Assembly: GCA_020974905.1 (NCBI GenBank)
Contig: CP087563.1
Span: 6,262,001 to 6,326,000 of the forward strand
From: Planctomycetes bacterium syqfu
GTDB lineage: Bacteria; Planctomycetota; Phycisphaerae; Phycisphaerales; Phycisphaeraceae
Direction: 5' to 3'
DNA length: 64,000 bases
Below the pieces are notes generated by a model that saw nothing but the letters and a program-made list of their open reading frames with translations, searched no databases and had not been told where the DNA came from. Each line of letters starts with the position of its first letter. Within the stretch, counting starts at the first letter, position 1. Of the stretch, positions 31,621 through 51,124 are shown piece after piece. Both the position numbers and the translations under genes were made by a program.

Positions 31621-31780
31621 GGATGCATTCACTTCTCACAACAGCTTGGCGTGAATATGGAATTCACGGAGTCATTTACCTTTTGCCTATCGGAACGATC
31701 ATGCAGTGACTTGATAAAGCGTTGCAATACAAAATCGCGAACCGATTGCTCTTCAGCAAACGCAGACCGTTATCCGGTCA

Positions 31781-35288: not shown

Positions 35289-35313
35289 ACATTCAAAGCA
35301 ACGCAATCAATAA

Positions 35314-35343
35314 AAAGCCCAGGTGTTTTGCCTGGGCTTTTTT
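35314..35343 (+). terminator. rho-independent terminator after the Coa1-like gene
   Basis: AAAGCCCAGG (35314-35323) and CCTGGGCTTT (35331-35340) form a perfect 10-bp stem with a 7-nt loop and a T-run. Its stem is almost the same sequence as the rpoC terminator. Confidence 0.92.
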
Positions 35344-35481: not shown

Positions 35482-36066
35482 TCAATCTGGCTCAATCGTT
35501 TCGACATGTCCGTCGTGATAGAGCATGTTCATTTTGGTGTTGTTCATGTGACGCTTCATTTTGCTGCCGTTGAAATTGCTGCAGGTGTAATTCCAACTGG
35601 CATGGACAGCGTTTTCGTAGATCCATCCCTTCTTGCTCAGATTGCCGTATTTGAGTTCAAGCATGTCAATCCGCCATGCATAGGGAACCCACGATCCATT
35701 TCTCAGCGCGTAATTTTTGGAATAGCCTGCGCAATAGGCTTTGTTGGTGCTGCTGAAATTACTTCTGGGAATGGGAAGCGCTTCAGGACAGTAGAAGATT
35801 TGATTCATGCCCGAGCGAACGTTGACATAATCGTCAAGCTTCTGCTTCCAGTAATGTTCACGGTAGGGCAGCCAGCCCCCATTGTCATCAGTGTAGAGAT
35901 GCGTCACTAGGCCGATCTGCTTCATCCGCGTCATGCAGTCCAGGCGTTTGGAAGTTTCACGCGCTGACGCCAGTGCCGGCAACAGGATCGATATGAGCAT
36001 GGCAACGATCGAGATGACCACCAGCAGTTCGATGAGTGTAAAAGCATGGGGGTGTGTTTTACGCAT
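35482..36066 (-). CDS. pseudopilin-like protein with DGH motif, coupled to a GntR regulator
   Basis: A 194-residue protein whose N-terminus [18 protein letters not shown] is a prepilin cleavage/methylation signal with the conserved Glu at +5 of the mature form. The middle holds paired Cys (DCMTRMKQIG, FYCPEALPIPR, YTCSNFNG) and the C-terminus ends with NMLYHDGHVE, the motif shared by the large planctomycete families of H-x-DGH pseudopilins. It is likely membrane-anchored and exported to the cell surface by a type II/IV-like machine. AAGGAAG lies six bases before the ATG at 36066. The start overlaps the regulator gene by 8 bp, so the two are translationally coupled. The same pairing recurs at 38641-40394. 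Confidence 0.85.
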   Translation of the reverse strand: MRKTHPHAFTLIELLVVISIVAMLISILLPALASARETSKRLDCMTRMKQIGLVTHLYTDDNGGWLPYREHYWKQKLDDYVNVRSGMNQIFYCPEALPIPRSNFSSTNKAYCAGYSKNYALRNGSWVPYAWRIDMLELKYGNLSKKGWIYENAVHASWNYTCSNFNGSKMKRHMNNTKMNMLYHDGHVETIEPD

Positions 36067-37216
36067 GATCGCTTCCTTGTTTGGGCCCCTCGGATAAGCC
36101 AATGTTGGCAAGCAGATTCTGCAAGTCCGTGTCAGGCATGCGACGTCCACCGCAGCTTTGTCGAATTTTCAGATACATGGGTTTGCTATGGCATTCCTGC
36201 ACGACTTTGCCTGCTGCCAAGCCCATGGCGTTTTTGAGCATCCATTGCGCAGGGTGTTCATAGTCACCATAAAAACTCGTTAACGGTGGGTCCGAACTCT
36301 CGCAGGCCGGGGTGTTGTTCCAGCCGATGATGCGGTAATCCGTGGGAGCCTGCAGGCCGATCTTGTGCATCGCTGTGATCATCCGCAGAGCATGTTCATC
36401 ATCAAAGCAGACGATGCCCAACCGACCACGAAACACAGCAAGCTTGTTGGCTAACTGATCCATCTTCCCGTGATCCGGCAAGAGCAGGTGGCAGTGGTTA
36501 TCCAATTCGTGTTCCGCGCAGAAAAGGCTGTAGCCAATGATGCGGCGTTCAAGCGTGATGTTCTGTCTGAGGTACGGGCCGACAAAAGCAACCTGTGAAC
36601 ACCCCAGTTCGCGAAGGTACTCACCAGCCAACTGGATGTAATGAGCACCACTGACACCAAACGTACGCGGGTCGGAAAAGTAGTGCTTGTCCAAGCCGGG
36701 TAACGCCACCGGAACACTCACCGGGATGGGGGCGTGGCGCACAAGGTTTGCCAGATTTGAGCTCTGATCCCATGGCAACCAGGGCACGATCGCACACGGG
36801 CATCCGGCTTTGGCCATCTCGTTGATCGCCTTGTGGGCCTGCTCCTTGAAGTCGGAGACCAGATGCGTGTGCAGCGTCAGTGATTGAGCGTTGGCAAGGT
36901 TGGCGATATTGCCACTGATCCGCATCCCATAGCTGTCGGCGTCGGCATGGATCAAAACCCCCACGTGATCAATCTTGCTGTTGGCGGTAGCGGGGTTGGC
37001 AACAAACGTCCCGGCACCAGTCCGGCGTTCAATCATGCCTTCGTCAGCCAGAAGTGAAAGTGCTTTGCGGACTGTTTGCATATTGCACTGGTTCAATCTC
37101 GCCAAATCACGCTCCGAAGGCATGCGACTTCCGGGTTTGAGATCCTTGATGCTGTTGAGAATGGTTTTTCTAACACTCTCGTACTTATAAGTTTTAGGTT
37201 CTTTGAGTTGAGTCAT
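36059..37216 (-). CDS. GntR-type regulator with LacI-like ligand-binding domain (copy 1)
   Basis: A 385-residue transcription factor. A GntR-family winged helix (8-75: SIKDLKPGSRMPSERDLA, then NMQTVRKALSLLADEGMIERRTGAGTFV) is joined to a periplasmic-binding-protein-like sensor (80-385) with segments such as [28 protein letters not shown] and YLRELGCSQVAFVGP. It presumably binds a sugar or oligosaccharide and controls its neighbours. Its recognition helix matches copies 2 (39237-40394) and 3 (47224-48384) closely. Two TTGCTATG motifs lie directly upstream. Its stop overlaps the start of a pseudopilin gene. Confidence 0.92.
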   Translation of the reverse strand: MTQLKEPKTYKYESVRKTILNSIKDLKPGSRMPSERDLARLNQCNMQTVRKALSLLADEGMIERRTGAGTFVANPATANSKIDHVGVLIHADADSYGMRISGNIANLANAQSLTLHTHLVSDFKEQAHKAINEMAKAGCPCAIVPWLPWDQSSNLANLVRHAPIPVSVPVALPGLDKHYFSDPRTFGVSGAHYIQLAGEYLRELGCSQVAFVGPYLRQNITLERRIIGYSLFCAEHELDNHCHLLLPDHGKMDQLANKLAVFRGRLGIVCFDDEHALRMITAMHKIGLQAPTDYRIIGWNNTPACESSDPPLTSFYGDYEHPAQWMLKNAMGLAAGKVVQECHSKPMYLKIRQSCGGRRMPDTDLQNLLANIGLSEGPKQGSDHA

Positions 37217-37230
37217 GAGCTTGCTTTGTA

Positions 37231-37301
37231 AATTGCTATGTATCGTTTGTGTTTAATTGTTTCATATCAATTTTAAAAGTCAAGCTAATTGCTATGCATA
37301 T
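37231..37301. promoter_or_regulatory. two TTGCTATG motifs, putative GntR operator
   Basis: AATTGCTATGTATC (37231-37244) and AATTGCTATGCATAT (37287-37301) are direct repeats between the start of GntR copy 1 and the terminator of the GH5 gene. The same core occurs upstream of both other GntR copies. Confidence 0.6.
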
Positions 37302-37325
37302 GGGTGAGATTTGTGAAATTCAGAC

Positions 37326-37359
37326 TATAAAAAACAGCGGCAAGTAAAGACCGCTGTTT
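37326..37359 (-). terminator. rho-independent terminator of the GH5 gene
   Basis: On the minus strand AAACAGCGG (37359-37351) pairs with CCGCTGTTT (37340-37332) over a 10-nt loop and is followed by TTTTAT. It is 36 bp after the stop of the GH5 gene. Confidence 0.87.
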
Positions 37360-37395
37360 GGACATGTGGTTTGGATGGGCTTTAAGCGGGTGGGA

Positions 37396-38538
37396 TCAGC
37401 GCATTTTCTTGATCTCGAATTGTTTTCCTGCCAGGGCATCCTTGGCAAATTGACCCCAGAAGGGGGTTGGGGTGAAGTCCCAGTCTGCGAGCATGCGTGG
37501 TGCCGATGCCGTATGGAAGCACCAGCCGGTCCAGTGCAGTTTGTATTTCTGAATGCAGCCCAAAAAGTCGGGGACCCAGGTATACGGGTCTTCTGGCGTA
37601 ATGCCAAGTTCGGTTAGAAAGCGCATGGGACGGCTGTCAGCACCGAGTTCGCCGATGAGGACCGGATATTTTTCAGCGGTCTTGAGGAAGTAATTCTTCC
37701 AATCGTTTTTCCAGTTGTAGCAGTGCGCTTCGTAGATGATGCCGTTACCACCGCGATCATCGATGGTAAAACCGTTAAGTGGTCCGGAGATGGTGGCAGC
37801 CCAATGGATACCGCTGACAGTGCAGACATTTTTCGCGCCGGTCTTGCGGATGCGGTCCATCAAGGCCTGCATGCCAGGTGACTCAAACGTTTTATATTTC
37901 AAATCGTTTTCCGCGACGACGCCCGGCTTGGGTTTGATTTTCTTCTTGACGGTGCCGCCATCTTTCCAGACTTCCCAAGTGATGCCATGTGGTTCGTTGA
38001 ATAGGCCGAAGATGACGGCGGGATGATTTTTGTATCGTGTTGCTGCATCTTCCCAGAAGTCCAGATGACGATCCTGCACGGCTTTGAATTCATGTAGATC
38101 CAACAGCAGGTATGCCCCACGCGAAGCGGTTGCCTTGACGAGTTTGTCGACCAACTCGCGGTAGGATTTGCCACCATCGCGTTGGTACTTGGTTTGACCG
38201 AACCAGAACTGTGCCTGCACCGCCAGCCGTATGATGTTGGCATGCCATTCCTCGATGGCAATGACGGTGGAAGGGAAGACATACTCGCCATGCACCGACC
38301 AACCCAGTGATGGGACATTAAGTCCCTGAAGCCAGACTTCATTGCCTTCGGTGTCCACGACTTTGTTGCCAACGGTCTTCAGGGCTTGCGGGAATGGTTT
38401 ACCGCCATCGACCGGGAACTGGACTGTTTTAGCGCGGGGTAATGGTTTGTCTTTGTTGCTTTCGGGCGTGCCGGCAAATGACGTGATGGCCATGGCAAAG
38501 ATAAGCAATATGGTAAGGCGAGGGGAAAATAGGGACAT
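37396..38538 (-). CDS. secreted GH5 family glycoside hydrolase (no binding domain)
   Basis: About 380 residues with a signal peptide (about 1-24, ending SFA). The catalytic TIM barrel is of the GH5/cellulase type. The acid/base Glu is in FGLFNEPHG (near 182) and the nucleophile Glu in PVLIGELGAD (near 295), with HCYNWKNDW and WTGWCFH in between or after. It would hydrolyse a beta-linked polysaccharide such as a glucan or mannan outside the cell. GGAG lies ten bases before the ATG at 38538. It differs from the two related enzymes at 43689-47016 by lacking their N-terminal binding domain. Third gene of the GntR copy 2-pseudopilin-GH5 unit. Confidence 0.9.
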   Translation of the reverse strand: MSLFSPRLTILLIFAMAITSFAGTPESNKDKPLPRAKTVQFPVDGGKPFPQALKTVGNKVVDTEGNEVWLQGLNVPSLGWSVHGEYVFPSTVIAIEEWHANIIRLAVQAQFWFGQTKYQRDGGKSYRELVDKLVKATASRGAYLLLDLHEFKAVQDRHLDFWEDAATRYKNHPAVIFGLFNEPHGITWEVWKDGGTVKKKIKPKPGVVAENDLKYKTFESPGMQALMDRIRKTGAKNVCTVSGIHWAATISGPLNGFTIDDRGGNGIIYEAHCYNWKNDWKNYFLKTAEKYPVLIGELGADSRPMRFLTELGITPEDPYTWVPDFLGCIQKYKLHWTGWCFHTASAPRMLADWDFTPTPFWGQFAKDALAGKQFEIKKMR

Positions 38539-38640
38539 ACAAACCGCTCCAAAAGGTTTTTGATTTGAGAAAATGAATTTGATGATGTGTTGCAGATATT
38601 CAGTAAGGTGTATGACGTAGCGTGTCATGACGAACGCTGG

Positions 38641-39240
38641 TCATTGATCCATCTCAGTCGTGACATGTCCATCATGCCAGAGTAGATTGGCTTGGGTGTC
38701 GGCAACGTGTCGATAGTAGGTTCCGACGTTGTAGTTGCCACAGGTATAGTTCCAGGCTTCGACAACGCGTGCTTCTTTGATCCAGGTGATCTGGCTGAGT
38801 GTTGTTTTTTTGTAGGGTGCCAGTTCGTCTAATTTCCACGCATAGCGATCTCCGCCGGATAAGTGCGAAAAGGCTGGATTGATGCGATAGTTTGCCGAAT
38901 ATGCCTTGTTGGTACCGCCGTATTTGTTGCGTGGGATATTCACAGCGTCCGGACAATAGAAAATCTGTTTAATCCCGAATCGGGCACGGGGAGGCACGTA
39001 ATCGTCCATACGTTGCTTCCAGTGGTCAGGTTTGAAAGGCAGCCAGTTGTTGTAGTCTTCGATGTAGGTGAAGGTCAGCACACCTATCTGCTTCATGCGT
39101 GTTGCACAATCAAGTTTCCGTGATGCTTCGCGCGCGCGGGCCAAGGCTGGCAGGAGGATTGCGATCAGCAGCGAGATGATTGAGATGACGACGAGAACTT
39201 CAATGAGTGTGAAAGCATTGTTGTTGTGCCTGGTTGTCAT
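38641..39240 (-). CDS. pseudopilin-like protein with DGH motif, coupled to GntR copy 2
   Basis: A 199-residue protein beginning [19 protein letters not shown], a prepilin cleavage/methylation signal. Its Cys pattern ([28 protein letters not shown]) and C-terminal [10 protein letters not shown] parallel the pseudopilin at 35482-36066 closely. The regulator's stop and this gene's start share ATGA (39237-39240), the tightest possible translational coupling. Between it and GH5 lie about 100 bp. The role is unknown; surface display or holding an extracellular polysaccharide near the cell are possible. Confidence 0.87.
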
Positions 39241-40394
39241 TTTTGATTCTCCTTGACATCGCGCAGTGTGAGGCCGACTTTTTTCAGAATGGCATCAAGC
39301 TCATCCGGGGCAAGCTCGCTCCCGCCACAGGTTTGGCGAAGATGCAGTTTCAAGCCGGTCCAGTCGGGATCCTGCATCACCTGCCCGCGCGTCAATCCGA
39401 TGGCATTTTTGAGCATCCACTTGGCGCCGATCTGATAGTTGCCACTGAAACTTGATAATGGGGGATCACAGGATTCGGCAGGGGATGTATCTCCCCAACC
39501 CAGGATCACGAAGTCCCGAGGCGCTTCGTAACCGAGTTTGTGCATTGCCGTGATGAAACGGATCGCATGCGAATCATCAAAGCAGGTCACCGCCAACTTG
39601 GGAGCATACCTGGCAAGCTTCGTCGCCAATGCGTTCATGGCCTGGTTGTCCATGGCAACCAGGTGGCAGAGATTGTCCAGTTGGTGTTTGCTGATGAATT
39701 GTGTGTAGCCGATGATCTTGCGTTCGACAATGTCATTGCCTTCGACCAGTGGGCCGATGAAGGCGATGTGTTCATAGCCCGTCTCGTGAAAATACTCACC
39801 AGCCAGTTGAATGAATTTGATGTCGGATTTGCCGAACGTCTCAGGCTTGGCAAAGCAATGACTTTCCAAACCGGGCAGCAGCATCGGGATGGTCAACGGG
39901 ATATCAGCTCGGCGAACCAGGTCCGCCAACTGCTGATTTTGATCCCAGGGCAGCCAAGGCACGATCGCACACGTGCAGCCAATGGCTTGAAGGGTCGCGA
40001 GGGCTTTATTCGCGCTGTCATCAAAGTCGTGGACGATTTGCGTGTGCAATGTCACCTGTTCATTGACCGCTTCCTGGTCGATGAGACTGCTGATCCGCAG
40101 AGCATAAGCGTCGGCCTGAGCGTGAAGCAGGATGCCCACATGACGTGTCTTGGGTGCTGCCGAAGTGCGCTCGGTGACAAAGGTGCCTGATCCGACACGG
40201 CGCTCAATGCGACCTTCCTCCACCAGCAGTGACATGGCTTTGCGGATGGTCTGCATGTTGCACTTGTTTTCCTGGGCAAGCTCGCGTTCGGAGGGCATTT
40301 TGGCGCCCGGGTCCAGCTGGCCAATCATGTCCATGATCGTGCTTTTGACATTCTGATACTTGAATTTTTTAGGGCTTGGTGCCTGTGTGGTCAT
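39237..40394 (-). CDS. GntR-type regulator with LacI-like ligand-binding domain (copy 2)
   Basis: A 385-residue protein with the same plan as copy 1: winged helix ([22 protein letters not shown], wing ending RRVGSGTFV) and a sensor domain including [11 protein letters not shown] and [13 protein letters not shown]. Many residues in the sensor also match ([33 protein letters not shown]), so the three copies probably sense related ligands. An AGG sequence precedes the ATG at nine bases. It heads the unit regulator, pseudopilin, GH5. An inverted pair of the shared motif stands 26-66 bp upstream and probably mediates self-regulation. Confidence 0.92.
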
Positions 40395-40419: not shown

Positions 40420-40460
40420 AATGCTATGCAAATAACTATGGTTTATTTTTGCATAGCATT
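40420..40460. promoter_or_regulatory. inverted pair of TATGC motifs, putative GntR operator
   Basis: AATGCTATGCAAATA (40420-40434) faces TATTTTTGCATAGCATT (40444-40460), giving a 41-bp dyad directly before the GntR copy 2 start. The half-site matches those at 37231, 37287 and 47185. Confidence 0.7.
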
Positions 40461-40781
40461 TGTAGAAGTCAAGTAGATCAATCAGGAATTCCCGGAGGTT
40501 CCCTGGCATGGGGAATTTATGGTTTTCATGGACATCTGGTGATGGATTATCCACACTAGACCGACTCAAATCTCCTCAGCCAGTGGCTGAAAACGAAAAG
40601 ATGGCGCGATCTTCGAATTTTCTCAATGAGATCACCGAGCCTGCCAGCGATTGGTTTGATTGGTCGCAAATTGTTTTAAGACAGTTGCTTGTGGATTAGT
40701 TTCGGAATGCTGAAGCGGCATTGGGGCATGGGGCAGACCATCATGGAGAGCAGCGAAGGGGGCCAAAGCCATATTTGTCTG
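40461..40781. other. non-coding stretch between two divergent units
   Basis: I find no supported gene here. A 63-codon open frame at 40508-40699 has no start signal and no family resemblance. Confidence 0.45.
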
Positions 40782-40855: not shown

Positions 40856-40896
40856 GCGGCGGCCGGTGTCACTTTGGCCAGCGATCCGGCCGCCGC
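40856..40896 (+). other. GC-rich hairpin in the leader of the pseudopilin mRNA
   Basis: GCGGCGGCCGG (40856-40866) and CCGGCCGCCGC (40886-40896) form a perfect 11-bp stem with a 19-nt loop, 24 bp before the Shine-Dalgarno. No T-run follows. It may slow translation, stabilise the leader or act as an attenuator. Confidence 0.55.
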
Positions 40897-40933
40897 ACAT
40901 TTTACGCTCACCCCTAATGCAAGGAGTATCGCG

Positions 40934-41743
40934 ATGTCTGTATCTTCGCATATCCCACTCACCCTGACCAGTCCGTCTCAGCCTGATGCTAAGAGGGCAT
41001 TCACACTCATCGAATTGCTGGTGGTCATCAGCATTATTGCTCTACTCATTGGCATTCTCCTGCCGGCTCTGGCCGGGGCACGTGAAGCAGGGCGGTCAGC
41101 CAGTTGTCTGAGTAACACCCGGCAGGTCAACACCGCCTTCCTGGCATTCTCCGTGGACTACAAAAACCGCATGCCCAGCTTCTCCACCGGGGGCAAGTAT
41201 CCCGATGCCTACTGGTACGGACGGGTCGACTGGACCAACGAAATTCTCTACATGGGGCAAGGCATCATTGGTCGCTACCTGGGTAAAGGCAACGTCTCGG
41301 GTTGTGACTCTGCCTTGTACGATGTCATGGATTGGTCCACCGGCCCGGTTGATTATGGGTACAACCGTTTCATGGCAACCGAACAAGGCAACGACTCGGA
41401 CATCCGCACCGCTGCCATCGTCGACCACTTTCTCGATCCCATCAACACCTGCGTCATTTACGATGCCACCGGCTTTGTCCGCAGCTCCGATCCGCCGCAG
41501 ACCGAAGCCTCCCCCTACGGTTGGCAGCCAAGCACGGGTAAGGCCTCACTGCACGGTCGGCATAACGGGCACGTTGCCAATGTCGCCTGGCTGGATGGTC
41601 ATTCCAGTAACACCGCGGTCTACTATCCGGCGGACAGCAGTGATCTCAAATCATCCACCGTCGATGAACTTAAATCCAAACATCGTGGATTTCTTGATAG
41701 TGACGATGACATGTCCACCGACGAACTTTACGACTACCAATAA
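40934..41743 (+). CDS. Fur-box-controlled pseudopilin-like protein
   Basis: A 269-residue protein. After about 19 hydrophilic residues comes [19 protein letters not shown], the prepilin cleavage/methylation signal. The C-terminal [15 protein letters not shown] is the DGH motif of planctomycete pseudopilins in its fullest form. The middle is Asp- and Tyr-rich with two Cys. AAGGAG lies seven bases before the ATG. Unlike the two others in this region it is not coupled to a GntR gene but follows a Fur-box-like site and precedes a PepSY protein, so iron may control it. Confidence 0.87.
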
Positions 41744-41815
41744 ACCCTCTGCAAAAACAGGTGCTCGGCAGTGTCTCTGTGCTGCCGGGTACCTGCGGGG
41801 GGTAATGAGAAAACG

Positions 41816-42850
41816 ATGTTTAGGAAAAAGAAAAATACGGGTTCAGGTTCATCCCGAAAAAACATTACCATGCGTCGCAAGTACAACCAGTTTTTGAAAC
41901 TGGTCCGTCGGACACATATGTACACCGGCTTATTGCTGCTGCCCTGGGTTTTACTGTTTGGTTTGAGTGGCTTGTTTTTCAATCATCCCAATTGGGCAAC
42001 ACCCACCGACACCGTGCATGTGGCCCAAGCCAGCGTGGTCCAGCAAACCATCGGCTTTACGCCCATCGATTCACAGCAAATGGCTGAGCAGATCATTGAC
42101 TTTCTCAATCAAATGGGTGACGAAAAATATGCAATGGTCAACGGCTCATCGCGCATCACCGGCAAGTTGACGATCAACGCTGCAAGCGAAAAAGCCAGTC
42201 ATGCAGCACGCGTCAATCTCGTAACCGGCAAAGCTGAGATTCAAACCACCCCGCAGGATCAGCAGGAAAAAGACGAGCCGGACTTTGCGGGTCAACGTAT
42301 TGATGATTTAACCATCGATACCGATTTAATCAGTGACGGTGCAGCAGCCTTGTTTGAGACAGCAGGGATCACAATCGACCAGCGTCCACGCATGCGTTTA
42401 CGACCCGCTCCCGAATTACAGTTTCAACTCACCGATCTTACAGGCAAGGTTTGGAACACCACGTTTAATCTTGCCAACGGTCAACTAGCGGGACGTGCAG
42501 CACAGAGCCCTTCCGGGTTGGGGTTTCGTGATAGCCTGACGCGCTTGCATCGACTGCATCAATATCCCGATGCAGTGGGGGCGCGATGGTTCTGGACTTT
42601 CCTGGCTGATGCGACCGCATTAACCATGGTGTTCTGGGGCATCTCCGGTGCGCTCATGTGGTGGCAGATCAAACCCACGCGCCTGCTGGGAGTCGGGGCG
42701 GTGAGTGTTGCTATCGTCATCGCCTGGTTAATCATCGCGGGAACCTTGGCGGAATTGACGTTCGGCCCAACTTCATCCCGACGTGGTGGTGGGGAAGGCG
42801 GTGGACACGGACACCGTGCTGCAGCAGAAGGTGAACAACATCTGCTTTAG
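41816..42850 (+). CDS. PepSY-associated membrane protein, possibly iron-regulated
   Basis: About 344 residues. An N-terminal helix (MYTGLLLLPWVLLFGLSGLFF, with RRTHMYTG before it) is typical of PepSY-TM proteins (COG3182, described as iron-regulated membrane proteins). A PepSY-like domain follows, then RLHRLHQYPD, a helix pair (FWTFLADATALTMVFWGISGALMWW and a second), and a Gly/His-rich tail (GGGEGGGHGHR). The His residues around the helices could bind haem or iron. The start is inferred as the ATG at 41816. It sits 72 bp after the pseudopilin in the same direction, under the same Fur-box-like site. Confidence 0.8.
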   Translation: MFRKKKNTGSGSSRKNITMRRKYNQFLKLVRRTHMYTGLLLLPWVLLFGLSGLFFNHPNWATPTDTVHVAQASVVQQTIGFTPIDSQQMAEQIIDFLNQMGDEKYAMVNGSSRITGKLTINAASEKASHAARVNLVTGKAEIQTTPQDQQEKDEPDFAGQRIDDLTIDTDLISDGAAALFETAGITIDQRPRMRLRPAPELQFQLTDLTGKVWNTTFNLANGQLAGRAAQSPSGLGFRDSLTRLHRLHQYPDAVGARWFWTFLADATALTMVFWGISGALMWWQIKPTRLLGVGAVSVAIVIAWLIIAGTLAELTFGPTSSRRGGGEGGGHGHRAAAEGEQHLL

Positions 42851-43071: not shown

Positions 43072-43632
43072 TCAGTCAACATATTCAAGCGTGAAATCGT
43101 CGAAGTCCATCGTACCTGCCTTGACATTAAACAGCACAGGCATGACTTCGAATTTGTGTGCGCCTTCGGGGACTTCAAATTCCAGGACCTTGTTTTCCCA
43201 TTCGGCATGGGTTCCTGCCATGCGTGGGATCTTGCTCACGCCTTTGACTTTTTTGCCCGCCGAGTTTTTGAACTGGATAAACAGCGTGCCGGAGAACCAT
43301 GATTTCTGTCCCTTTTCGATGCCGTTGCATCGCATTTTGAACGTCATCTTCATCTTCTTACCATAGTCCGCAGGCTTGATGAAGAACTGACGATAGACCA
43401 TGTACATCTTGCCTGGTTCCATGGAAGTCAGACGAAGGAACTTGTTTTCGCCCTCGGTCTCCCAACTGCTGCCTTTTTCAGGATTGACACCCCAGTGTGC
43501 GGGGGTGCCGGGTTTCTTGGGATTTTCTTGCTGCAGGTCACCACCTTTGAAAAGATTATCGCCTGCAAAGACGCCGGTGGTCATCATCAACAATGCCAAT
43601 GCAGCACAAAGTCCGGTCCATTTTTTACTCAT
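43072..43632 (-). CDS. stand-alone secreted carbohydrate-binding-like protein
   Basis: A 186-residue protein with a signal peptide (1-23, ending VFA). The rest is a single beta-sandwich of about 160 residues (NLFKGGDLQQ, KFLRLTSMEPGKMYMVYRQFFIKPADYGKK, MKMTFKMRCNGIEKG, GTMDFDDFTLEYV). It is plainly the same domain as the N-terminal part of the two GH5 enzymes that follow it upstream, resembling the family 4/9 carbohydrate-binding modules. It would bind the polysaccharide without cutting it. GAGGAG precedes the ATG. It is the last gene of a three-gene operon and has lost, or never had, a catalytic domain. Confidence 0.82.
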   Translation of the reverse strand: MSKKWTGLCAALALLMMTTGVFAGDNLFKGGDLQQENPKKPGTPAHWGVNPEKGSSWETEGENKFLRLTSMEPGKMYMVYRQFFIKPADYGKKMKMTFKMRCNGIEKGQKSWFSGTLFIQFKNSAGKKVKGVSKIPRMAGTHAEWENKVLEFEVPEGAHKFEVMPVLFNVKAGTMDFDDFTLEYVD

Positions 43633-43688: not shown

Positions 43689-45305
43689 TCAACGCATTTT
43701 CTTCATCTCAAATGGCTTGCCTGAAAGTGCGTCCTTGGCAAACTGTCCCCAGAACGGTGTGGGCGTGAAATCCCAGTCCGAAATCATGCGTGGTGTGGAG
43801 TTGGTATGGAAACACCATGCCGTCCAATGCAGCTTGTGCTTCTGAACACAACCCAGAAAGTCCGGCACCCACGTGTAGGGATCTTCCTGAATCTCCTTGG
43901 GCAGAAAGTCCATCGGCTTGATGTCCGCACCAAGTTCGCCCATCAGGACCGGATACTTTTTCGCGGTGTTCAGGAAGTGACCTTGCCAATCTTTTTTCCA
44001 GTTGTAGCAGTGGGCTTCGTAGATGATGCCGTTGCCGCCGTTGTCCACAATGGCATAGCCTTCGAGCACACCTGCGACGGTTGCTGCCCAGTCCAGACCA
44101 CTGACGGTGCATACATTTTTTGCACCGGTTTGGCGGATCACGTCCATGCACTTTTGCATGCCCGGTGACTCAAAGGTCTTGTAATCAAGCTTGTTTTCTG
44201 CTGCAACGCCGTCTTTGGCTTTGATCTTTTCTTTGACCGTGCCACCATTTTTCCAGACATCCCAACTGATGCTATGCGGCTCGTTGAACAAGCCGAAGAT
44301 CACTGCCGGGTGATTGGCGTATCGCGTTGCTGCGTCTTCCCAAAATTTCAGATGCTTGGGTTGGATCGCTTTGAACTCATGGAGATCAAGCAGCAGATAC
44401 GCACCGCGTGACGCAGTCGCTTCAACGAGTTTGTCGACCAGTTCGCGATAGGCTTTGCCGCCGTCATTCTGGTAATCCGATTCACCGAACCAGAAATTGT
44501 GACGCACCGCCAAACGGATGACGTTGGCATGCCATTCGTCAATTGCAACGACGGTGGACGTGAAAACCTGTTCACCTTTGGCGGACCAACCCAGTGAAGG
44601 GATGTTGATACCTTGCAGCCAGACTTCCTTGCCTGCCGAGTTGATGACTTTGTCGCCGACGACTTTGAGTTCAAGCGGGTGGGCTTTACCACCATTGACG
44701 GGAAACACGGCAGTGTGTGCACGTTGCTTGGGAGCCGGCTTGTATTTCTCACCCATCGCACTGATGTATTGCAGTGAGAAGTCATCCAGATCCATCGTGC
44801 CTGACTTGACATTAAAAAGCACCGGCATGATCTGCAGCTTCACTGCTTTATCAGGAATGACCATGTCGACGGACTTGTCCTGCCAATCCATGGTGCCTTT
44901 GACACGCGGAATACCACGGACGCCCGGGGAAAGTTTCTTGTTGTTCTCATCGACGAACTGGATAAACAACGTGCCAACGAACCACGGTTTTTCACCGCGT
45001 TGCAGGTCATTGCAGCGCATCTTAAATGACAGTCTCAAAAACTTGCCAGCATCATCGGGTTTGAAATAAAACTCGCGATAGGTCAGCACGGTCTTGCCCG
45101 GCTCAGTGCTTGTCAATCGCAGGAAACGGTTATCGCCCTGCGTTTCACAACTCACGCCTTGCTCGGGTTTGAGTCCCCATTTGTAAGGTGACTGCAATGA
45201 TCCGGCATGGAGATCACCATTGAGAAAAAGATTCTCCTGAGCATGTGTTGGCATGCATGACATCGTGATGATGGTGCATATCAAGATGCAAAACCAATAT
45301 CTCAT
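43689..45305 (-). CDS. secreted carbohydrate-binding + GH5 hydrolase (copy A)
   Basis: A 538-residue protein: signal peptide (about 1-22), binding domain (about 24-190) and GH5 domain (about 205-538). The acid/base is Glu in FGLFNEPHS (near 340), the nucleophile Glu in LMGELGAD (near 455). GLDWAATVAG, HCYNWKKDW and WTAWCFH are shared with the other two enzymes. TMSC near the signal's end could be a lipobox, in which case the protein would be membrane-anchored. AGGA lies ten bases before the ATG. It is the middle gene of the operon, 103 bp after copy B. Confidence 0.9.
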   Translation of the reverse strand: MRYWFCILICTIITMSCMPTHAQENLFLNGDLHAGSLQSPYKWGLKPEQGVSCETQGDNRFLRLTSTEPGKTVLTYREFYFKPDDAGKFLRLSFKMRCNDLQRGEKPWFVGTLFIQFVDENNKKLSPGVRGIPRVKGTMDWQDKSVDMVIPDKAVKLQIMPVLFNVKSGTMDLDDFSLQYISAMGEKYKPAPKQRAHTAVFPVNGGKAHPLELKVVGDKVINSAGKEVWLQGINIPSLGWSAKGEQVFTSTVVAIDEWHANVIRLAVRHNFWFGESDYQNDGGKAYRELVDKLVEATASRGAYLLLDLHEFKAIQPKHLKFWEDAATRYANHPAVIFGLFNEPHSISWDVWKNGGTVKEKIKAKDGVAAENKLDYKTFESPGMQKCMDVIRQTGAKNVCTVSGLDWAATVAGVLEGYAIVDNGGNGIIYEAHCYNWKKDWQGHFLNTAKKYPVLMGELGADIKPMDFLPKEIQEDPYTWVPDFLGCVQKHKLHWTAWCFHTNSTPRMISDWDFTPTPFWGQFAKDALSGKPFEMKKMR

Positions 45306-45408: not shown

Positions 45409-47016
45409 TTACCGCATTTTCTTCATTTCGAATTGTTTGCCCGCAAGTGCTTCCTTGACAAACTTGCCCCAGAAGTCCGTGGGGGTGTAGTTCCAGTCAG
45501 CCAGGACGCGCGGGTTGGCATTGGTGTGAAAACTCCATGCCGTCCAGTTGAGTTTGTATTTCTGGATGCAACCGATCATGTCCGGCGCCCAGGTGTAGGG
45601 GCTTTCGGGATTGGTTTGCCAAGGCATGGGCTTGGTATCGCAGCCATTTTCACCCAGTAAAATAGGGTGTTTTTCAGCAATATCCAGGAACTTGCCTTGC
45701 CAGTCGGACTTCCATGGGTAGACGTGTGTGTCGTACATGATGCCGTATCCGTCGGGGTCTTTGATGTCGTAGCCTTTGAGAATGCCCGAGAGATCGTAGG
45801 CCCAATCCAGTGCGCCGATGACGCAGATGTTTTTCGCACCGGTCTTGCGGATGGCATCGACACAGGCCTGCATGCCCGGTGATTGGAAGGTGTTGTAGGT
45901 GATCTTGTTTTCCGCTGCCACGCCTGCTTTGGCTTTGACTTTAGACTTGACTTCACCGCCGTATTTCCAGGTTTTCCAGTCGATGCTATGCGGTTCGTTG
46001 AGCAGTCCGAACATCACCGCCGGATGGTTCTTGTATCGCTTGGCTGCATCAATCCAGAATTCAATATGCTTGGGTTGGATGGCCTTGTATTCGTGAAGAT
46101 CGAGTACGAGGTATGCGCCACGCGATGCGCAGGATTCAACGAGTTTATCGACGATCTCGCGATAGAGTTTACCCCCGTCATCTTCCCAGCCGCTGGTCCC
46201 AAACCAGAAGGGGGACTTGACCGGCAGGCGGATGATGTTGGCGTTCCATTCCTCGATGGCAATGACCACGGAGTTGTGAATGTAGTCACCGGTGCGCGAC
46301 CATTCGAGACTGGGAATACTCACGCCTTGAAGCCAGTATTCCTTGCCATTGTCATCGACGAGTTTGTTGCCTTTGACTTTGAGCATGGGCGGGTTGGGTT
46401 TGCCACCATCCACCGGGAAGCTTGCCAATTGGGCGCGGGTTTTGGGTTTTTCAATCATCTTGTCGATGTACTTGAGGTGCATGTCATCGACGTCGAACGT
46501 ACCGGCCTGCGTGTTAAACAGGCAGGGCATGATTTCGAGTTTGTTGGCACCTTCGGGGATTTTCATCTGGAAGGTTTTGTGGACCCAGTCCTTCTTGGTG
46601 CCTTTGATGTTGGGGGACTTGGCACCTTTGAGTGTCTTGCCGTCCGAGTCCTTGAAGTTCATCATGATCCGGGCATCAAACCAGGGGCGAGCACCGGGGA
46701 CGACGCCATCGCAGCGCATCTTCACTTCCATTTCCAGCGCCTTGCCTGCATCTTCGGGTTCGAAGTAGATTTCGCGATAGACCAGATTCATTTTGCCCGG
46801 CTTGACGGTTTTGAGTCGCAGAAAGTGGTTACCGTTTTCCGACGCCCATTCCTGTCCATTGTCGGTTTTCAGTCCCCAGCCATCGGGTTGACCGGTCTTG
46901 CGGGTGCTGGCTTCGAAGTTGCCGTTGGAGATGAGATTTTTCTCAGCAGCCTGCGTCGTTGCGGTCATGGCAGCGACACATAACAACATTGCTGTGATGG
47001 CCCATCGTTTGATCAT
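45409..47016 (-). CDS. secreted carbohydrate-binding + GH5 hydrolase (copy B)
   Basis: About 535 residues with a signal peptide (about 1-23, ending TQA), a family 4/9-like binding domain (25-190) and a GH5 domain (200-535). The acid/base Glu is in FGLLNEPHS (near 339) and the nucleophile in LLGENGCD (near 453), where the neighbour has GELG. That suggests a somewhat different specificity. AGGAG lies eight bases before the ATG at 47016. The gene heads the operon that includes copy A and the binding-only protein, and diverges from GntR copy 3, with two TTGCTAT motifs in the shared 207-bp region. Confidence 0.9.
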   Translation of the reverse strand: MIKRWAITAMLLCVAAMTATTQAAEKNLISNGNFEASTRKTGQPDGWGLKTDNGQEWASENGNHFLRLKTVKPGKMNLVYREIYFEPEDAGKALEMEVKMRCDGVVPGARPWFDARIMMNFKDSDGKTLKGAKSPNIKGTKKDWVHKTFQMKIPEGANKLEIMPCLFNTQAGTFDVDDMHLKYIDKMIEKPKTRAQLASFPVDGGKPNPPMLKVKGNKLVDDNGKEYWLQGVSIPSLEWSRTGDYIHNSVVIAIEEWNANIIRLPVKSPFWFGTSGWEDDGGKLYREIVDKLVESCASRGAYLVLDLHEYKAIQPKHIEFWIDAAKRYKNHPAVMFGLLNEPHSIDWKTWKYGGEVKSKVKAKAGVAAENKITYNTFQSPGMQACVDAIRKTGAKNICVIGALDWAYDLSGILKGYDIKDPDGYGIMYDTHVYPWKSDWQGKFLDIAEKHPILLGENGCDTKPMPWQTNPESPYTWAPDMIGCIQKYKLNWTAWSFHTNANPRVLADWNYTPTDFWGKFVKEALAGKQFEMKKMR

Positions 47017-47053
47017 GTTTCGGACTCCTGTGCGTGCGGACTGAAGTTGGTTA

Positions 47054-47067
47054 CAATTGCTATAAGC
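47054..47067. promoter_or_regulatory. TTGCTATAAGC motif before GH5 copy B
   Basis: CAATTGCTATAAGC at 47054-47067 matches the AATTGCTATG half-sites of the other GntR regions in eight of ten positions. It lies 38 bp upstream of the GH5 copy B start and could act with the sites at 47171-47196. Confidence 0.45.
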
Positions 47068-47170
47068 GTGTGATGACACCGAGGTCGGGTTTATTCAATG
47101 ACACTTGCTGTCCTGAAGTTTCATAATCCTATCCGAGATTTGTCATCAATCAATAGCGATATGGGATAAA

Positions 47171-47223: not shown

Positions 47224-48384
47224 ATGGCCAAGATATTTGATCGCAACAATCTGAAATATCAACAAGTTAAGGTAAGTATTGAGTCTGTTGTGGATCAGCT
47301 TCAACCCGGTGATAAAATTCCATCCGAGCGAGATTTGGCAAAGCAATATGACTGCAATTTTTTAACTGTCCGTAAAGCACTGGCCTTGCTGGTCGAAGAG
47401 GGACGCATCGAAAAACGCACCGGCTCAGGCACCTTTGTCACCGATCCCAATGCTATAGCAAAGAACGTCAACCACGTCGGCATTCTCCTGCATACCTTCT
47501 CGGACCCCTATGCGTTGCGGATTGCAGGCTGCATCAGTCAGACGGCGACCGACCGGAAAATCACGCTGCATACCAAGATGATCCAGGACTATGAAGGCTC
47601 TGCCATGCAGGCTGTCGAGAGTCTGCAAGCTGAGGGCTGTTGTGCGGTCATCATCCCGTGGTTCCCGTGGGAGCAGACTCAGCAGATGCTCCAGTTTGTC
47701 GGCAATTCGCCCATCCCCGTGAGTATCCCCGCGGTCTTTCCCGGTTTGGAAGATCAGTGCTTTGCCCGCGCTGCGACCTTCGGCAAGAGTGCCACCCACT
47801 ACACCGACCTCTCCGGCAAATATTTTCAAAAACTCGGTTACAACAACATCGCCTTCATCGGCCCACTCTCGGTGGACAATGACATTCTTCATCGCAAGAT
47901 CATCGGCTATACCAACTTCATCGGCCAGGCCGGGTTGGATAATCTCTGCCAACTCATCGGCCCGGATACCAAGGCCATGGACAAAGTTGCCAGCAAACTC
48001 AAGCAATACAAGGGGGACCTGGCGGTGATCAGTTATGACGATCAACATGCCACGCGCTTCCTCACCGCCATGCACAAACTTGGACTTCAAGCGCCGCAGG
48101 ACTTTGGCATTCTCGGTTACAACAACACCGATGCCGCCGAACATGCCGACCCACCGTTGTCCTGTCTTTATGGTGATTATGTGCATCCTGCCCAATCCAT
48201 GCTTGAGAATGCGTTGGGCCTGGCGCAGGATAAAGTTGTGCAGACCACGCATTGTCGCCCGTTGTATTTCAAACTCCGTGAAAGCTGCTCGGGCAAGTTG
48301 CGTATGGGCGACAAACTCCCTGCCTTGCTCGAGGAGATTGGTTTCCTGGACATGCCTCAAGAGTTGCCGGTTCAGGACATCTGA
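47224..48384 (+). CDS. GntR-type regulator with LacI-like ligand-binding domain (copy 3)
   Basis: A 386-residue protein with the same plan and length as copies 1 and 2. The winged helix (IPSERDLAKQYDCNFLTVRKAL, wing RTGSGTFV) and the sensor (AVIIPWFPWEQ, YNNIAFIGPLSVDN, PPLSCLYGDYVHPAQ) align throughout. I use the ATG at 47224 with GGGAA close by; a TTG start ten codons earlier would be out of line with the other two. It diverges from the GH5 operon and precedes the GH116 gene. A ligand released by these enzymes is the natural inducer. Confidence 0.92.
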   Translation: MAKIFDRNNLKYQQVKVSIESVVDQLQPGDKIPSERDLAKQYDCNFLTVRKALALLVEEGRIEKRTGSGTFVTDPNAIAKNVNHVGILLHTFSDPYALRIAGCISQTATDRKITLHTKMIQDYEGSAMQAVESLQAEGCCAVIIPWFPWEQTQQMLQFVGNSPIPVSIPAVFPGLEDQCFARAATFGKSATHYTDLSGKYFQKLGYNNIAFIGPLSVDNDILHRKIIGYTNFIGQAGLDNLCQLIGPDTKAMDKVASKLKQYKGDLAVISYDDQHATRFLTAMHKLGLQAPQDFGILGYNNTDAAEHADPPLSCLYGDYVHPAQSMLENALGLAQDKVVQTTHCRPLYFKLRESCSGKLRMGDKLPALLEEIGFLDMPQELPVQDI

Positions 48385-48509: not shown

Positions 48510-48549
48510 TTGACGAGAATTGTGTGCTTGCATATCGTGTAATTACACG
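48510..48549 (+). promoter_or_regulatory. promoter with overlapping palindrome before GH116
   Basis: TTGACG (48510-48515), a 17-bp spacer and TATCGT (48533-48538) resemble a sigma-70 promoter. The -10 region is overlapped by the perfect palindrome CGTGTAATTACACG (48536-48549), and TTGCATATCG (48528-48537) resembles half of the GntR-region motif. This is a likely repressor site. Confidence 0.45.
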
Positions 48550-48565
48550 AAAAGGAAAATATGCA

Positions 48566-51058
48566 ATGACACATCCATTCAATCAAGCATACGCCGACGA
48601 ACATCTCACCCGCAGCGGCTTTCCCCTGGGCGGGATCGGGGCAGGGATGATCTGCCTGGAAGGCTCCGGGAAACTCGCGCAGGTCTCCGTCAGACATCAT
48701 CCGCAAATCTTTTTTGAACCGCTGATTTTCTCTGCCATCCATGTCAAAGGCGTGGATAACGGCACGCGTCTGCTTGAAGGTCCGGCACCGGATTGGAAGT
48801 TGGGAGCCCGTTGGGCGGGAAGCAATAATTTTCACCAGAGTTCAGGCAACGGGTTTTACAACAAGACCTATGGCATGCCTCATTTTCAGTCCACGCAGTT
48901 CACCGCACGCTTCCCCTTTGCCACCGTTGATATGACGCACCCGGACATGCCTTTGACCTGTCAACTCAAGGCGTTCAGTCCGTTTGTCCCTGGCGATTCA
49001 GAGTCCGCATCGCTACCGGTGGTATCCATGCAATACACGTTTACCAACACATCCGACAAAGCTGTTGAAGCGGTGTATTCGTTTCATGCTCATCGTGATG
49101 TGATTGCCAGTGCAGCCAAGGATCAGAAAAACAATCTCTGGCCCAACGTCATTCAGGAAGATTCCGGCTTTGTGATTTCACAGGGGGCACCGGTGGACAA
49201 CCCTGCCGGTGCCGGTGAGTTTGGCGTGTGGTGTGATGCAGCGGATACGACCGTCGATACCGCGTGGTTTCGTGGCGGTTGGTTTGACACGTTGACCATG
49301 CTCATGAAGAAAATCACCAGTGGTGATACATCCGCCAAAGCGTCGTATACCGATGGTGATCCCAGCCAGGGCGGAAGCTTGTTTGTCCCACTGCAACTTG
49401 ATCCGGGTCAGAGCCAAACCGTGCGTGTTCTGCTGAGTTGGTTTGTTCCTGTCAGTGATCTCAAAGCAGGGCAGACCGATGAGACTTCCTGTGGCTGTGA
49501 TGATGGTCAATGCTGCACGCCCAACGAGCCGGACACCTATCGCCCGTGGTATGCTTCGCGCTTTGGCAGTGGGGCGAATCTCAGGCATTTCTGGAAGCTC
49601 AAGCATGGCACACTCCAGCAGCAAAGTGCTTTGTTTTCTGACACTTTCTTTGCAAGCACGTTACCCGATGAAGTCCTAGAAGCGGTCTCAGCAAACCTGA
49701 GTATTCTCAAATCACCAACGGTGCTCCGTCAACACGATGGCAGACTTTGGGCGTGGGAAGGATGTCACGATGATTCGGGTTGCTGTCATGGCAGTTGCAC
49801 GCATGTCTGGAATTATGCCCAGGCCATCTGTCACCTGTTTCCCGATCTGGAACGGACTTTCCGCGAAACGGAGTTTGGTCCGTCCCAGAGTGCTGAAGGT
49901 GAACAGGTCTTTCGAACCAACCTGCCGATCTCCAATGCGACGTTTGGATTCCATGCAGCATCCGATGGGCAACTTGGTGGCATTGCCAAACTCTATCGCG
50001 AGTGGCGTATCAGCGGGGACACGGATTGGCTCAAGAAACTCTGGCCTGCTGCAAAACAGTCGTTGGAGTTCTGCATCAAAGCCTGGGACCCGGATGAATT
50101 GGGCATGCTCATTGAACCGCATCATAACACCTATGACATTGAGTTCTGGGGACCCGATGGTATGTGCACCTCGTTTTACCTGGCAGCACTCAAAGCTGCA
50201 TCACGGATGGCGATGGCGTTGGGCGATGAACACGAACGCTACGATCAACTCTACGCTCGTGGCAAAGAGGCGATGGAAACCCAACTCTTTGACGGTGAAT
50301 ATTTCATTCAACAGATCCGCTGGAAAGACCTTCAAGCCAAGCCGGAATTCGAACATCAAAACAAGGACCGCTGCTATTCACCCGAAGCCGTTGCCATCCT
50401 CCAGGAGGAAGGCCCGAAGTATCAGTACGGCAAAGGCTGTCTCTCCGACGGGATTCTCGGTGACTGGATCGGTCGAACCAGTGGCCTTGAGCCGGTGGTC
50501 GATGAAGCAAAAATCACATCGCATCTTGAAAGTGTCTTCAAGTACAACTTCCGAACATCACTGGCTGATCACGTTAATCCCCAACGCTGCGGTTATGCTT
50601 GTGGTGATGAAGCGGGATTGCTGCTGTGTACATGGCCAAAGGGTGGCCGCCTGAGTTTGCCGTTCGTCTACAGCGAAGAAGTCTGGACCGGCATTGAATA
50701 CCAGGTCGCATCGCACCTGATGATGTCAGGCAAAGTTCAAGAAGGTCTGGCCATCGTCCGTGCTGCACGCCAACGCTACGACGGCAGGAAACGCAATCCG
50801 TTTAATGAGATTGAATGCGGACACTGGTACGCTCGCGCGATGGCAAGCTACGGTCTGATCCAGGGACTCACCGGCATCCAATATGACGCGGTCGATCAAA
50901 CCCTCACCGTCAAGCCCCAAATCTCCGGCGATTTTCAGAGTTTCCTGAGTACCGCGACCGGCTTTGGTCTGGTCAGCGTCAAAGACAATCAGGTATCCGT
51001 CGAAGTCAAGCATGGCAAGATTGATGTCAAGCACATCGACTATCAACCCTGCGAGTGA
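48566..51058 (+). CDS. GH116 beta-glucosidase / glucosylceramidase-like enzyme
   Basis: An 830-residue protein without a signal peptide. The N-terminus (SGFPLGGIGAGMICLEGSG) and the (alpha/alpha)6 C-terminal half (HNTYDIEFWGPDGMCTSFY, GYACGDEAGLLLCTWPKGG, FVYSEEVWTGIEYQVASHLM, NEIECGHWYARAM) are diagnostic of GH116, whose members cleave beta-glucosides and beta-xylosides. A cytoplasmic enzyme of this kind would process oligosaccharides brought in after extracellular GH5 attack. A palindrome overlaps its probable promoter. GGA lies ten bases before the ATG at 48566. No transporter gene is visible nearby. Confidence 0.87.
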   Translation: MTHPFNQAYADEHLTRSGFPLGGIGAGMICLEGSGKLAQVSVRHHPQIFFEPLIFSAIHVKGVDNGTRLLEGPAPDWKLGARWAGSNNFHQSSGNGFYNKTYGMPHFQSTQFTARFPFATVDMTHPDMPLTCQLKAFSPFVPGDSESASLPVVSMQYTFTNTSDKAVEAVYSFHAHRDVIASAAKDQKNNLWPNVIQEDSGFVISQGAPVDNPAGAGEFGVWCDAADTTVDTAWFRGGWFDTLTMLMKKITSGDTSAKASYTDGDPSQGGSLFVPLQLDPGQSQTVRVLLSWFVPVSDLKAGQTDETSCGCDDGQCCTPNEPDTYRPWYASRFGSGANLRHFWKLKHGTLQQQSALFSDTFFASTLPDEVLEAVSANLSILKSPTVLRQHDGRLWAWEGCHDDSGCCHGSCTHVWNYAQAICHLFPDLERTFRETEFGPSQSAEGEQVFRTNLPISNATFGFHAASDGQLGGIAKLYREWRISGDTDWLKKLWPAAKQSLEFCIKAWDPDELGMLIEPHHNTYDIEFWGPDGMCTSFYLAALKAASRMAMALGDEHERYDQLYARGKEAMETQLFDGEYFIQQIRWKDLQAKPEFEHQNKDRCYSPEAVAILQEEGPKYQYGKGCLSDGILGDWIGRTSGLEPVVDEAKITSHLESVFKYNFRTSLADHVNPQRCGYACGDEAGLLLCTWPKGGRLSLPFVYSEEVWTGIEYQVASHLMMSGKVQEGLAIVRAARQRYDGRKRNPFNEIECGHWYARAMASYGLIQGLTGIQYDAVDQTLTVKPQISGDFQSFLSTATGFGLVSVKDNQVSVEVKHGKIDVKHIDYQPCE

Positions 51059-51068
51059 TATCATTCGG

Positions 51069-51117
51069 CTAGTCCCTAGTCCCTAGTCCCTAGTCCCTAG
51101 TCCCTAGTCCCTAGTCC
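51069..51117 (+). repeat. seven tandem copies of CTAGTCC
   Basis: The heptamer CTAGTCC is repeated seven times without change, ending 8 bp before the ATG of the LacI-type gene. A unit of seven is not a multiple of three; slippage would shift any reading frame across it, but here it is non-coding and would change leader length or promoter spacing. Confidence 0.9.
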
Positions 51118-51124
51118 CTGATTC

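Follow-up and report, generated by a model that had tools for sequence, protein, structure and literature searches.

A genome-wide pairing of LacI/GntR-type sugar sensors with pilin-like genes in a planctomycete and its possible role in glycan utilisation

Why should the gene of a sugar-sensing transcriptional regulator be joined to that of a surface pilin? A 64,000-nucleotide stretch of the genome of Planctomycetes bacterium syqfu (class Phycisphaerae), here called the window, holds two such arrangements, units 1 and 2 (Table 1). In each of them a regulator gene shares codons with a pilin-like gene behind it, and unit 2 runs on into the gene of a predicted secreted GH5 enzyme. A first-pass annotation had described this anatomy correctly and had read the two units as repeated modules of a single regulator subfamily under strict translational coupling. 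We demonstrate that the pairing is real and genome-wide but is not defined by overlapping codons. The two modules are thus instances of an architecture found throughout the genome, which we regard as a variant of glycan-utilisation loci.

In the genome (7.38 Mb, one contig), regulators were located via the Pfam domain Peripla_BP_3 and pilins via the prepilin motif and similarity. We used 150 of 215 first-look regulator candidates, to which the window's own was added by hand, and 150 of the 290-301 first-look pilin candidates, so that the resulting count is a lower bound: at least 77 of 151 sensor regulators, a set that takes in AraC-type ones sharing the sensor domain, have a same-strand pilin start no more than 400 bp past the end of the sensor domain. 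Random placement of pilins gave a mean of 0.88 and a maximum of 5 pairs in 500 draws. A random sample comprised 60 of 90 planned stretches (L061-L120), taken in random order from regulators outside the loci found earlier by similarity. Of the 82 regulator rows obtained (81 regulators, of which one appears twice), 42 have a pilin within 250 bp downstream. Among the 265 other genes on these stretches the figure is 13 (odds ratio 20, p = 4e-20). Because of these two comparisons we regard the pairing as genome-wide. Without a functional link, abundant pilins would land near everything or ride in mobile glycan islands. The roughly 300 pilin candidates (290 and 301 in two counts) are compatible with this, as are transposase and integrase genes among the mixed upstream neighbours of the regulators, which provide a weak control (the scan covered 34 of the 50 genes, with 25 of 64 families listed). 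Yet the few pilins behind other genes argue against such an accident, and so do the directionality of the arrangement, its recurrence in other genomes of the class and the purifying selection on the genes tested (see below). We consider it hardly credible.

Together with the earlier loci, which had been picked for their resemblance to proteins of the window and so favour pairs, the random sample makes up a set of 110 regulators. A pilin lies directly behind 63 of these and divergently at 13, and 34 have neither. Codons overlap in 9 of the 63 pairs (-8, -8, six of -4, and -1). The ATG nearest to the prepilin motif was taken as the pilin start and overlaps may be undercounted; at L130 of G017, a more distant member of the class, an in-frame ATG that overlaps the regulator stop was skipped by this rule. 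Still, the median gap between regulator and pilin is 46 bp, and 37 of the 42 random-sample pairs lie 15-130 bp apart. Overlap as an essential feature of the pairing was rejected since most pairs are separated, and the strict translational coupling that had been supposed is not general.

Both window regulators match GntR and Peripla_BP_3 in Pfam (51.1/58.6 bits for unit 1 and 52.8/52.2 bits for unit 2; cut-offs 27/26.5) and are, judged by their domain make-up, of the GntR/LacI hybrid sugar-sensing type. The winged helix of a solved arabinose repressor is among the structure matches. The two proteins are 51% identical to each other. Four close subfamily members exist in the genome, with 44-51% identity to the unit 2 regulator, and the next-best match drops to 25%. 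The fourth subfamily GntR, at 4.63 Mb, overlaps its pilin by 4 bp and has more pilins behind. The assignment to a single subfamily thus holds for the two window regulators; the pairing as such extends over LacI-type (43 of 63) and GntR-type (16 of 63) regulators (Pfam, E 0.01). The paired regulators also match several small helix-turn-helix models of a general kind, and no AraC-type domain is found on them among the matches listed (25 of 47 families). The 47 other regulators, 13 with a divergent pilin and 34 with none, comprise 28 LacI, 11 GntR and 7 AraC-type matches. The pairing therefore concerns LacI- and GntR-type sugar sensors generally. Similarly, the description as a repeated module is borne out by dozens of pairs in the genome but not by the third GntR of the window, behind which a GH116 gene takes the place of the pilin.

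The pairing is not confined to this genome either, so that a lack of conservation, on which the first-pass annotation would have dropped its idea, does not apply. In the nearest named relative, Phycisphaeraceae NAT22, the regulator is 88% identical, which places syqfu in the class Phycisphaerae, and the order GntR-pilin-GH5 is kept. All four subfamily loci of NAT22 and Phycisphaerales UBA7800 overlap (4, 8, 4 and 4 bp), and two of them carry runs of five and two pilins; the five consecutive pilin genes stand behind a single GntR of UBA7800 (L123:9170-12731). Unit 1 has its counterpart in the UBA7800 pair that overlaps by 8 bp (63% identity between the regulators, 68% between the pilins); there, a chondroitinase-B-type enzyme comes next. 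In G017, a pilin follows all three homologues (L130, L132 and L134, at 29, 18 and 37 bp). Four homologues from three Verrucomicrobiota genomes have no downstream pilin; one of them, the Opitutaceae homologue L126, has a divergent pilin at 7051-7710, and a link between regulator and pilin may exist outside the planctomycetes in another arrangement.

The subfamily itself is rare, with 2 of 198 Phycisphaerae genomes at E 1e-40. For sensor regulators in general, other genomes were sampled by high-scoring regulators and not at random, and rows L221, L241 and L257 were read by a fall-back rule. Direct pairing was found in 12 of 17 rows of G017, 8 of 20 of NAT22 (G252) and 9 of 27 of UBA7800 (G253). 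It was lower in G026 (3 of 14) and G018 (1 of 5), and in six other genomes of the class none of 16 rows was paired and 2 of the 16 had a divergent pilin; G039, which is among the six, does show a pair at its best-scoring regulator. This pair stems from a survey across the class of mostly the best regulator per genome, in which 4 of 29 rows were paired, one of them in the syqfu genome itself (limit 260 bp instead of 250; the clipped loci L145 and L150 gave no row, L164 gave two). Planctomycetota outside the class yielded 2 of 22 paired rows (G199, G217), and three Verrucomicrobiota genomes 0 of 18, with only 98 bp downstream available in one row (L257). Overall, the layout occurs across the Phycisphaerae, is strongly expanded in some lineages and is found in a few cases in other classes.

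What stands behind the pilins? The next gene could be called for 50 pairs. It lies on the same strand in 36, in 34 of these no more than 400 bp away, and these 34 were scanned: 32 belong to the random sample, one to L055, and one is the window GH5, which was substituted for a spurious open reading frame (L001:160-633). The short next genes of L076 and L088 were scanned in the pool only. A glycoside hydrolase (GH) or polysaccharide-lyase (PL)-type domain exceeds the Pfam cut-off in 17 of the 34, representing GH5, GH10, GH16, GH39, GH42, GH2, arabinofuranosidase, heparinase-like and pectate-lyase-like types. One more next gene is GH71/GH99-like but below the cut-off, and two next genes are pilins. 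By a simple hydrophobicity rule rather than a trained predictor, 27 of 29 next genes have a signal-like N-terminus compared to 14 of 39 genes upstream of the regulator (genes of at least 200 amino acids, pilins excluded, window GH5 not counted). Given these two results, unit 2 is a typical three-part cassette. The reading frame of its GH5 runs from 38628, but the later start at 38538 is most likely the right one, because it gives a signal-like N-terminus and because the NAT22 counterpart begins 98 bp past its pilin; the GH5 that had been noted as secreted in the first pass is thus upheld by Pfam and by its predicted N-terminus. Taken in the broad sense of a polysaccharide utilisation locus, a co-directional sensor and a predicted secreted glycan enzyme are present in unit 2 and absent from unit 1, whose pilin has no enzyme behind it.

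The order of regulator, pilin and secreted enzyme, together with the 27 of 29 next genes that look secreted, also suits the main rival to a role in glycan binding: as a minor pseudopilin, the pilin could bring the enzyme encoded beside it, as cargo, to a shared type II secretion system (T2SS) and so export it, with the regulator just switching the pair on. Several T2SSE and secretin matches exist in the genome, and in a published study it was suggested that the T2SS could export the alginases (PMC13274419). Two GH10 units resemble each other in enzyme, pilin and regulator more than the median (pilin-like next genes left out), which is the sole trend of this kind and comes from one pair of units. 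A general link between enzyme and pilin similarity was considered and rejected: r = 0.23 (p = 0.003, 32 units) falls to r = 0.05 (p = 0.24) without one GH10 unit, which speaks against the cargo adaptor. The same is true for unit 1 with no enzyme, for 16 of 50 pairs that lack a same-strand gene within 400 bp past the pilin, and for the five-pilin run, in which no enzyme is interspersed. Runs of two and five pilins per regulator fit parts of a fibre better than one adaptor per enzyme. We leave a sizeable, if smaller, probability to the cargo adaptor and prefer capture of glycans at the cell surface, because there are runs of pilins and pilins with no enzyme beside them, and because pilus-like fibres of planctomycetes are reported to bind dextran.

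What kind of proteins are the pilins? The window pilins match N_methyl (27.2 and 33.0 bits, cut-off 21.2) and TIGR02532 (26.0 and 26.5 bits, cut-off 16.3) and, by their leader motif, belong to the superfamily of type IV pilins and T2SS pseudopilins. The model of the major T2SS pseudopilin GspG (TIGR01710) stays below its cut-off of 88.85 with 29.6 and 25.2 bits. The unit 2 pilin has the cleavage motif A-FTLIE, conserved Cys45 and Cys96 and DGHV at the C-terminus. In an alignment of 17 sequences that are alike over most of their length, Cys45, Cys96, Asn185 and Asp190-Gly191 are invariant, and along the N-terminal helix (positions about 10-68) a nine-sequence profile matches PilA and GspG chains of solved structure. 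Ala or Gly precedes the Phe in all 63 paired pilins, and 62 of 63 have at least two Cys past the helix; Glu5 was part of the search pattern and hence is no test. The paired pilins are thus predicted to be export-competent. Matches to machine genes in the genome number 18 for T2SSE (GspE/PilB-type ATPases), 9 for secretin and 2 for the A24 peptidase; many machines and some 300 pilin candidates may thus depend on a small number of peptidases.

In comparison with NAT22, the paired pilin 4 has a ratio of nonsynonymous to synonymous substitution rates (dN/dS) of 0.015/0.41 and its regulator of 0.035/0.47, and the divergent pilin of the window shows 0.026/0.46. For pilin 2, dN is 0.20 and dS could not be estimated; this dN exceeds the value for its regulator (0.081, dS 0.59) about 2.5-fold and the value for the GH5 (0.060, dS 0.59) 3.3-fold. 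The genes tested are maintained, and pilin 2 evolves faster than its neighbours, whereas pilin 4 does not. Purifying selection on the tested pilins therefore argues against non-functional genes.

As an alternative to a filament subunit, the leader could be an anchor only and the C-terminal part could hold glycan fragments in the large periplasm, as in a membrane-tethered or periplasmic binding protein. A related Pfam family is named SBP_bac_10 (DUF1559, PF07596), and its cut-off of 23.3 bits is just exceeded by pilin 2 (23.7) and missed by pilin 1 (21.7). However, only positions 1 to 28-31 of the 268 of this model match, and all 63 paired pilins retain Gly or Ala where the leader would be cleaved, beyond what a mere anchor would need. 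The 301 pilin candidates far outnumber the 18 T2SSE matches, and such proteins were recovered from detergent-soluble fractions of Tuwongella (PMC8567305), both of which would agree with a tethered binder. On balance we judge it improbable.

Upstream of unit 2, a perfect inverted repeat with 13-nt arms (AATGCTATGCAAA/TTTGCATAGCATT) overlaps a promoter-like site and is likely an operator, if a putative one. Operator-like half sites stand upstream of unit 1 (ATTGCTATG), and there is a half site ahead of the third GntR (CATAGCAAT). Within 120 bp upstream of the four subfamily genes of the genome, 9 TTGCTATG-like half sites occur where 0.77 are expected, and none of 1000 shuffles reaches 9. With four relatives added there are 15 such sites versus 1.5 expected; these promoters are mutually related. 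The layout would be the anatomy of autoregulation.

We tentatively propose, with slightly less than even confidence, that each unit is a self-contained, substrate-inducible cassette of a sensor, a glycan-specific minor pilin and an enzyme. As family and promoter anatomy suggest, the LacI/GntR sensor would repress its own operon via an operator overlapping the promoter and would release it when sugar from one polysaccharide enters the cell. To judge from adjacency, a single transcript would then yield the pilin and, in many of the units, also a secreted enzyme that degrades polysaccharides. The leader motif points to cleavage by the prepilin peptidase, upon which the pilin could become a minor subunit of a general pilus or pseudopilus machine encoded elsewhere. 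Finally, and this is the least certain step, its variable and probably disulphide-bonded C-terminal domain might grip the polysaccharide at the surface while the enzyme cuts. Such a capture would fit the neighbouring enzymes and the published binding of dextran to pilus-like fibres. That exchangeable minor pilins replace the outer-membrane glycan receptor of classical loci, with a large set of separately regulated sensor-pilin units (at least 77 pairs in this genome) allowing one or a few shared machines to be re-tipped for each polysaccharide, is a further thought that we find possible but rather doubtful.

The first-pass annotation had also suggested that the pilin might report the presence of the polysaccharide. 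Sensing the glycan outside and feeding back on the regulator, it would account for coupled translation, in line with the codon overlap in 9 of 63 pairs and at all four loci of the subfamily in NAT22 and UBA7800. However, the regulator has a sugar-binding domain of its own, and 37 of the 42 random-sample pairs are separated by 15-130 bp. Co-evolution of regulator and pilin was also rejected as a candidate: the Mantel Pearson coefficient of 0.23 (p = 0.001, 63 pairs) is met by a Spearman coefficient of -0.01 and drops to 0.02 once similar regulators are left out, so that the signal comes from recent duplicates only. A role as signal input is thus unsupported and in our opinion very improbable. 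The interpretation given in the first pass is retained as far as the pairing is conserved and, tentatively, for display or capture of the polysaccharide; strict coupling is given up as a rule, and the reporting role finds no support here.

Several observations weigh against the glycan-capture cassette that we prefer. Besides the 34 of 110 regulators with no pilin on either side and the 16 of 50 pairs without a close same-strand gene, 14 of the 34 scanned next genes are neither GH/PL nor pilin (beta-helix, BNR, DUF or no match). Once one GH10 unit is removed, pilin similarity tracks neither enzyme nor regulator. The operator motif was chosen by eye from the same promoters and the site counts flatter it, and the promoter-like sites (13 versus 8.8 in shuffles, standard deviation 3.1) show no excess. 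In the AlphaFold2 model of the pilin (nine sequences), the mean predicted local distance difference test score is 50 and the N-terminal helix alone is reliable. The proteome of Verruconatronum alginivorum, to which we compare the window below, has one replicate per treatment (PMC13274419). Binding, expression and export of the genes discussed here are predicted, and adjacency is not proof of one transcript.

Table 1. Positions of the units, their presumed control sites and neighbouring features within the window
Feature	Position	Strand	Remarks
Unit 2 sensor regulator	39237..40394	-	385 amino acids; GntR winged helix and LacI-type sugar-binding domain
Unit 2 pilin-like protein	38641..39240	-	199 amino acids; ATGA (4 bp) shared with regulator
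Unit 2 GH5 enzyme, predicted secreted	37396..38538	-	Pfam 'Cellulase'
Unit 1 sensor regulator	36059..37216	-	385 amino acids; GntR and Peripla_BP_3
Unit 1 pilin-like protein	35482..36066	-	194 amino acids; ATG at 36066; 8 bp shared with regulator
Perfect inverted repeat AATGCTATGCAAA/TTTGCATAGCATT, unit 2 promoter region	40420..40460		13-nt arms 40420-40432 and 40448-40460
Unit 2 promoter-like site	40445..40472	-	TTGACT-16-AAAAAT, TG before second hexamer; consensus match only
Operator-like half sites ATTGCTATG upstream of unit 1	37232-37240 and 37288-37296		
Unit 1 promoter-like site	37256..37283	-	TTGACT-16-AACAAT; consensus match only
Half site CATAGCAAT ahead of third GntR	47186		
Terminator-like hairpin, end of unit 2, 3' of GH5	37332..37359	-	
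Terminator-like hairpin 3' of unit 1, between convergent genes	35312..35342		found on + only
Further pilin-like gene, divergent from unit 2	40874..41743	+	has NAT22 counterpart
GH5 paralogue with additional N-terminal domain	43689..45305	-	
GH5 paralogue, divergent from third GntR	45409..47079	-	
Third GntR, same subfamily	47227..48384	+	GH116 gene behind instead of pilin
GH116 enzyme behind third GntR	48524..51058	+	

Both units are closed by terminator-like hairpins, of which the region contains 22 versus 12.5 in shuffles. The divergent pilin is followed by a PepSY_TM protein (window 40874-42850), and NAT22 has counterparts of both. A 186-amino-acid protein (43072-43632), for which Pfam has no match, shares 49% identity with the N-terminal region of the adjoining GH5 paralogue (43689-45305) and may be a binding module that stands alone. 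A perfect tandem repeat of the 7-bp unit CTAGTCC (7.3 copies, 51069-51119) separates the GH116 gene from a LacI gene, and three exact head-to-tail copies of this unit occur at no other place in the genome. An adjacent pair of PAS-type proteins, judged from the translations, is encoded at 30718-32716; the upstream one carries what we take to be a GGEEF signature, and its partner seems to be without it.

How do these units relate to known systems? GntR/LacI hybrid repressors such as AraR combine a GntR-type DNA-binding with a LacI-type sugar-binding domain and have palindromes upstream of their own gene; unlike AraR, the window regulators are genetically linked to a pilin. Sus-like polysaccharide utilisation loci unite a local sensor with secreted glycan enzymes, are substrate-specific and occur many times per genome. 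The cassettes described here differ from them by the pilin inside the cassette.

In planctomycetes, the N_methyl/DUF1559 family is large and its function is unassigned (PMC10632474, PMC2754498, PMC8567305), with 68 DUF1559 paralogues as the largest group in Planctopirus (PMC10632474) and 74 in Rhodopirellula (PMC2754498). Mass spectrometry of Tuwongella picked up 31 of its 100 N_methyl proteins, mainly in the fractions mentioned above, and N_methyl genes are 'often flanked' by signal-peptide genes (PMC8567305). The window pilins share the prepilin leader, the many paralogues (tens to a hundred) and the signal-peptide neighbours with this N_methyl/SBP_bac_10 family. In contrast to its members, they match DUF1559 at the start only and sit between a LacI/GntR regulator and a secreted glycan enzyme. 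Pairing with regulators is not mentioned for the family in the available parts of these three papers, and the matches listed from open-access titles and abstracts, a scope outside which subscription papers and preprints fall, contain no LacI/GntR-pilin pairing. In the accessible text on CAZyme clusters in Planctomycetota, pili are named once, for adhesion (PMC11131199).

A closer parallel comes from Verruconatronum alginivorum, in which a pulG-like pseudopilin with 67 homologues lies inside an alginate-induced cluster and a further pseudopilin, outside both clusters, is over-expressed on alginate (PMC13274419). As in the window, pseudopilins are thus located in, or induced with, a polysaccharide-lyase cluster; unlike the window, the organism belongs to the Verrucomicrobiota, and an adjoining sensor regulator is not described in the part of the paper available (PMC13274419). 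Finally, in two planctomycetes, Planctopirus and Gemmata, gold-labelled dextran was located for the most part at pilus-like fibres (PMC5394234). Like the proposed pilins, these fibres of the crateriform structures bind polysaccharide that then reaches the periplasm; unlike them, they come from species other than syqfu, and their proteins are not named in the text available (PMC5394234). Their fixed position, with a sugar sensor in front and a secreted enzyme behind, makes the function of the pilins testable, and since every unit comes with a sensor and often with an enzyme, one could guess beforehand which glycan a given pilin would bind. If the proposal is true, some members of what is the largest protein family of planctomycetes still to be explained would gain a function, the paired pilins would be candidates for the dextran-binding fibres, and the capture of polysaccharides by pilus-like fibres would gain a molecular basis.

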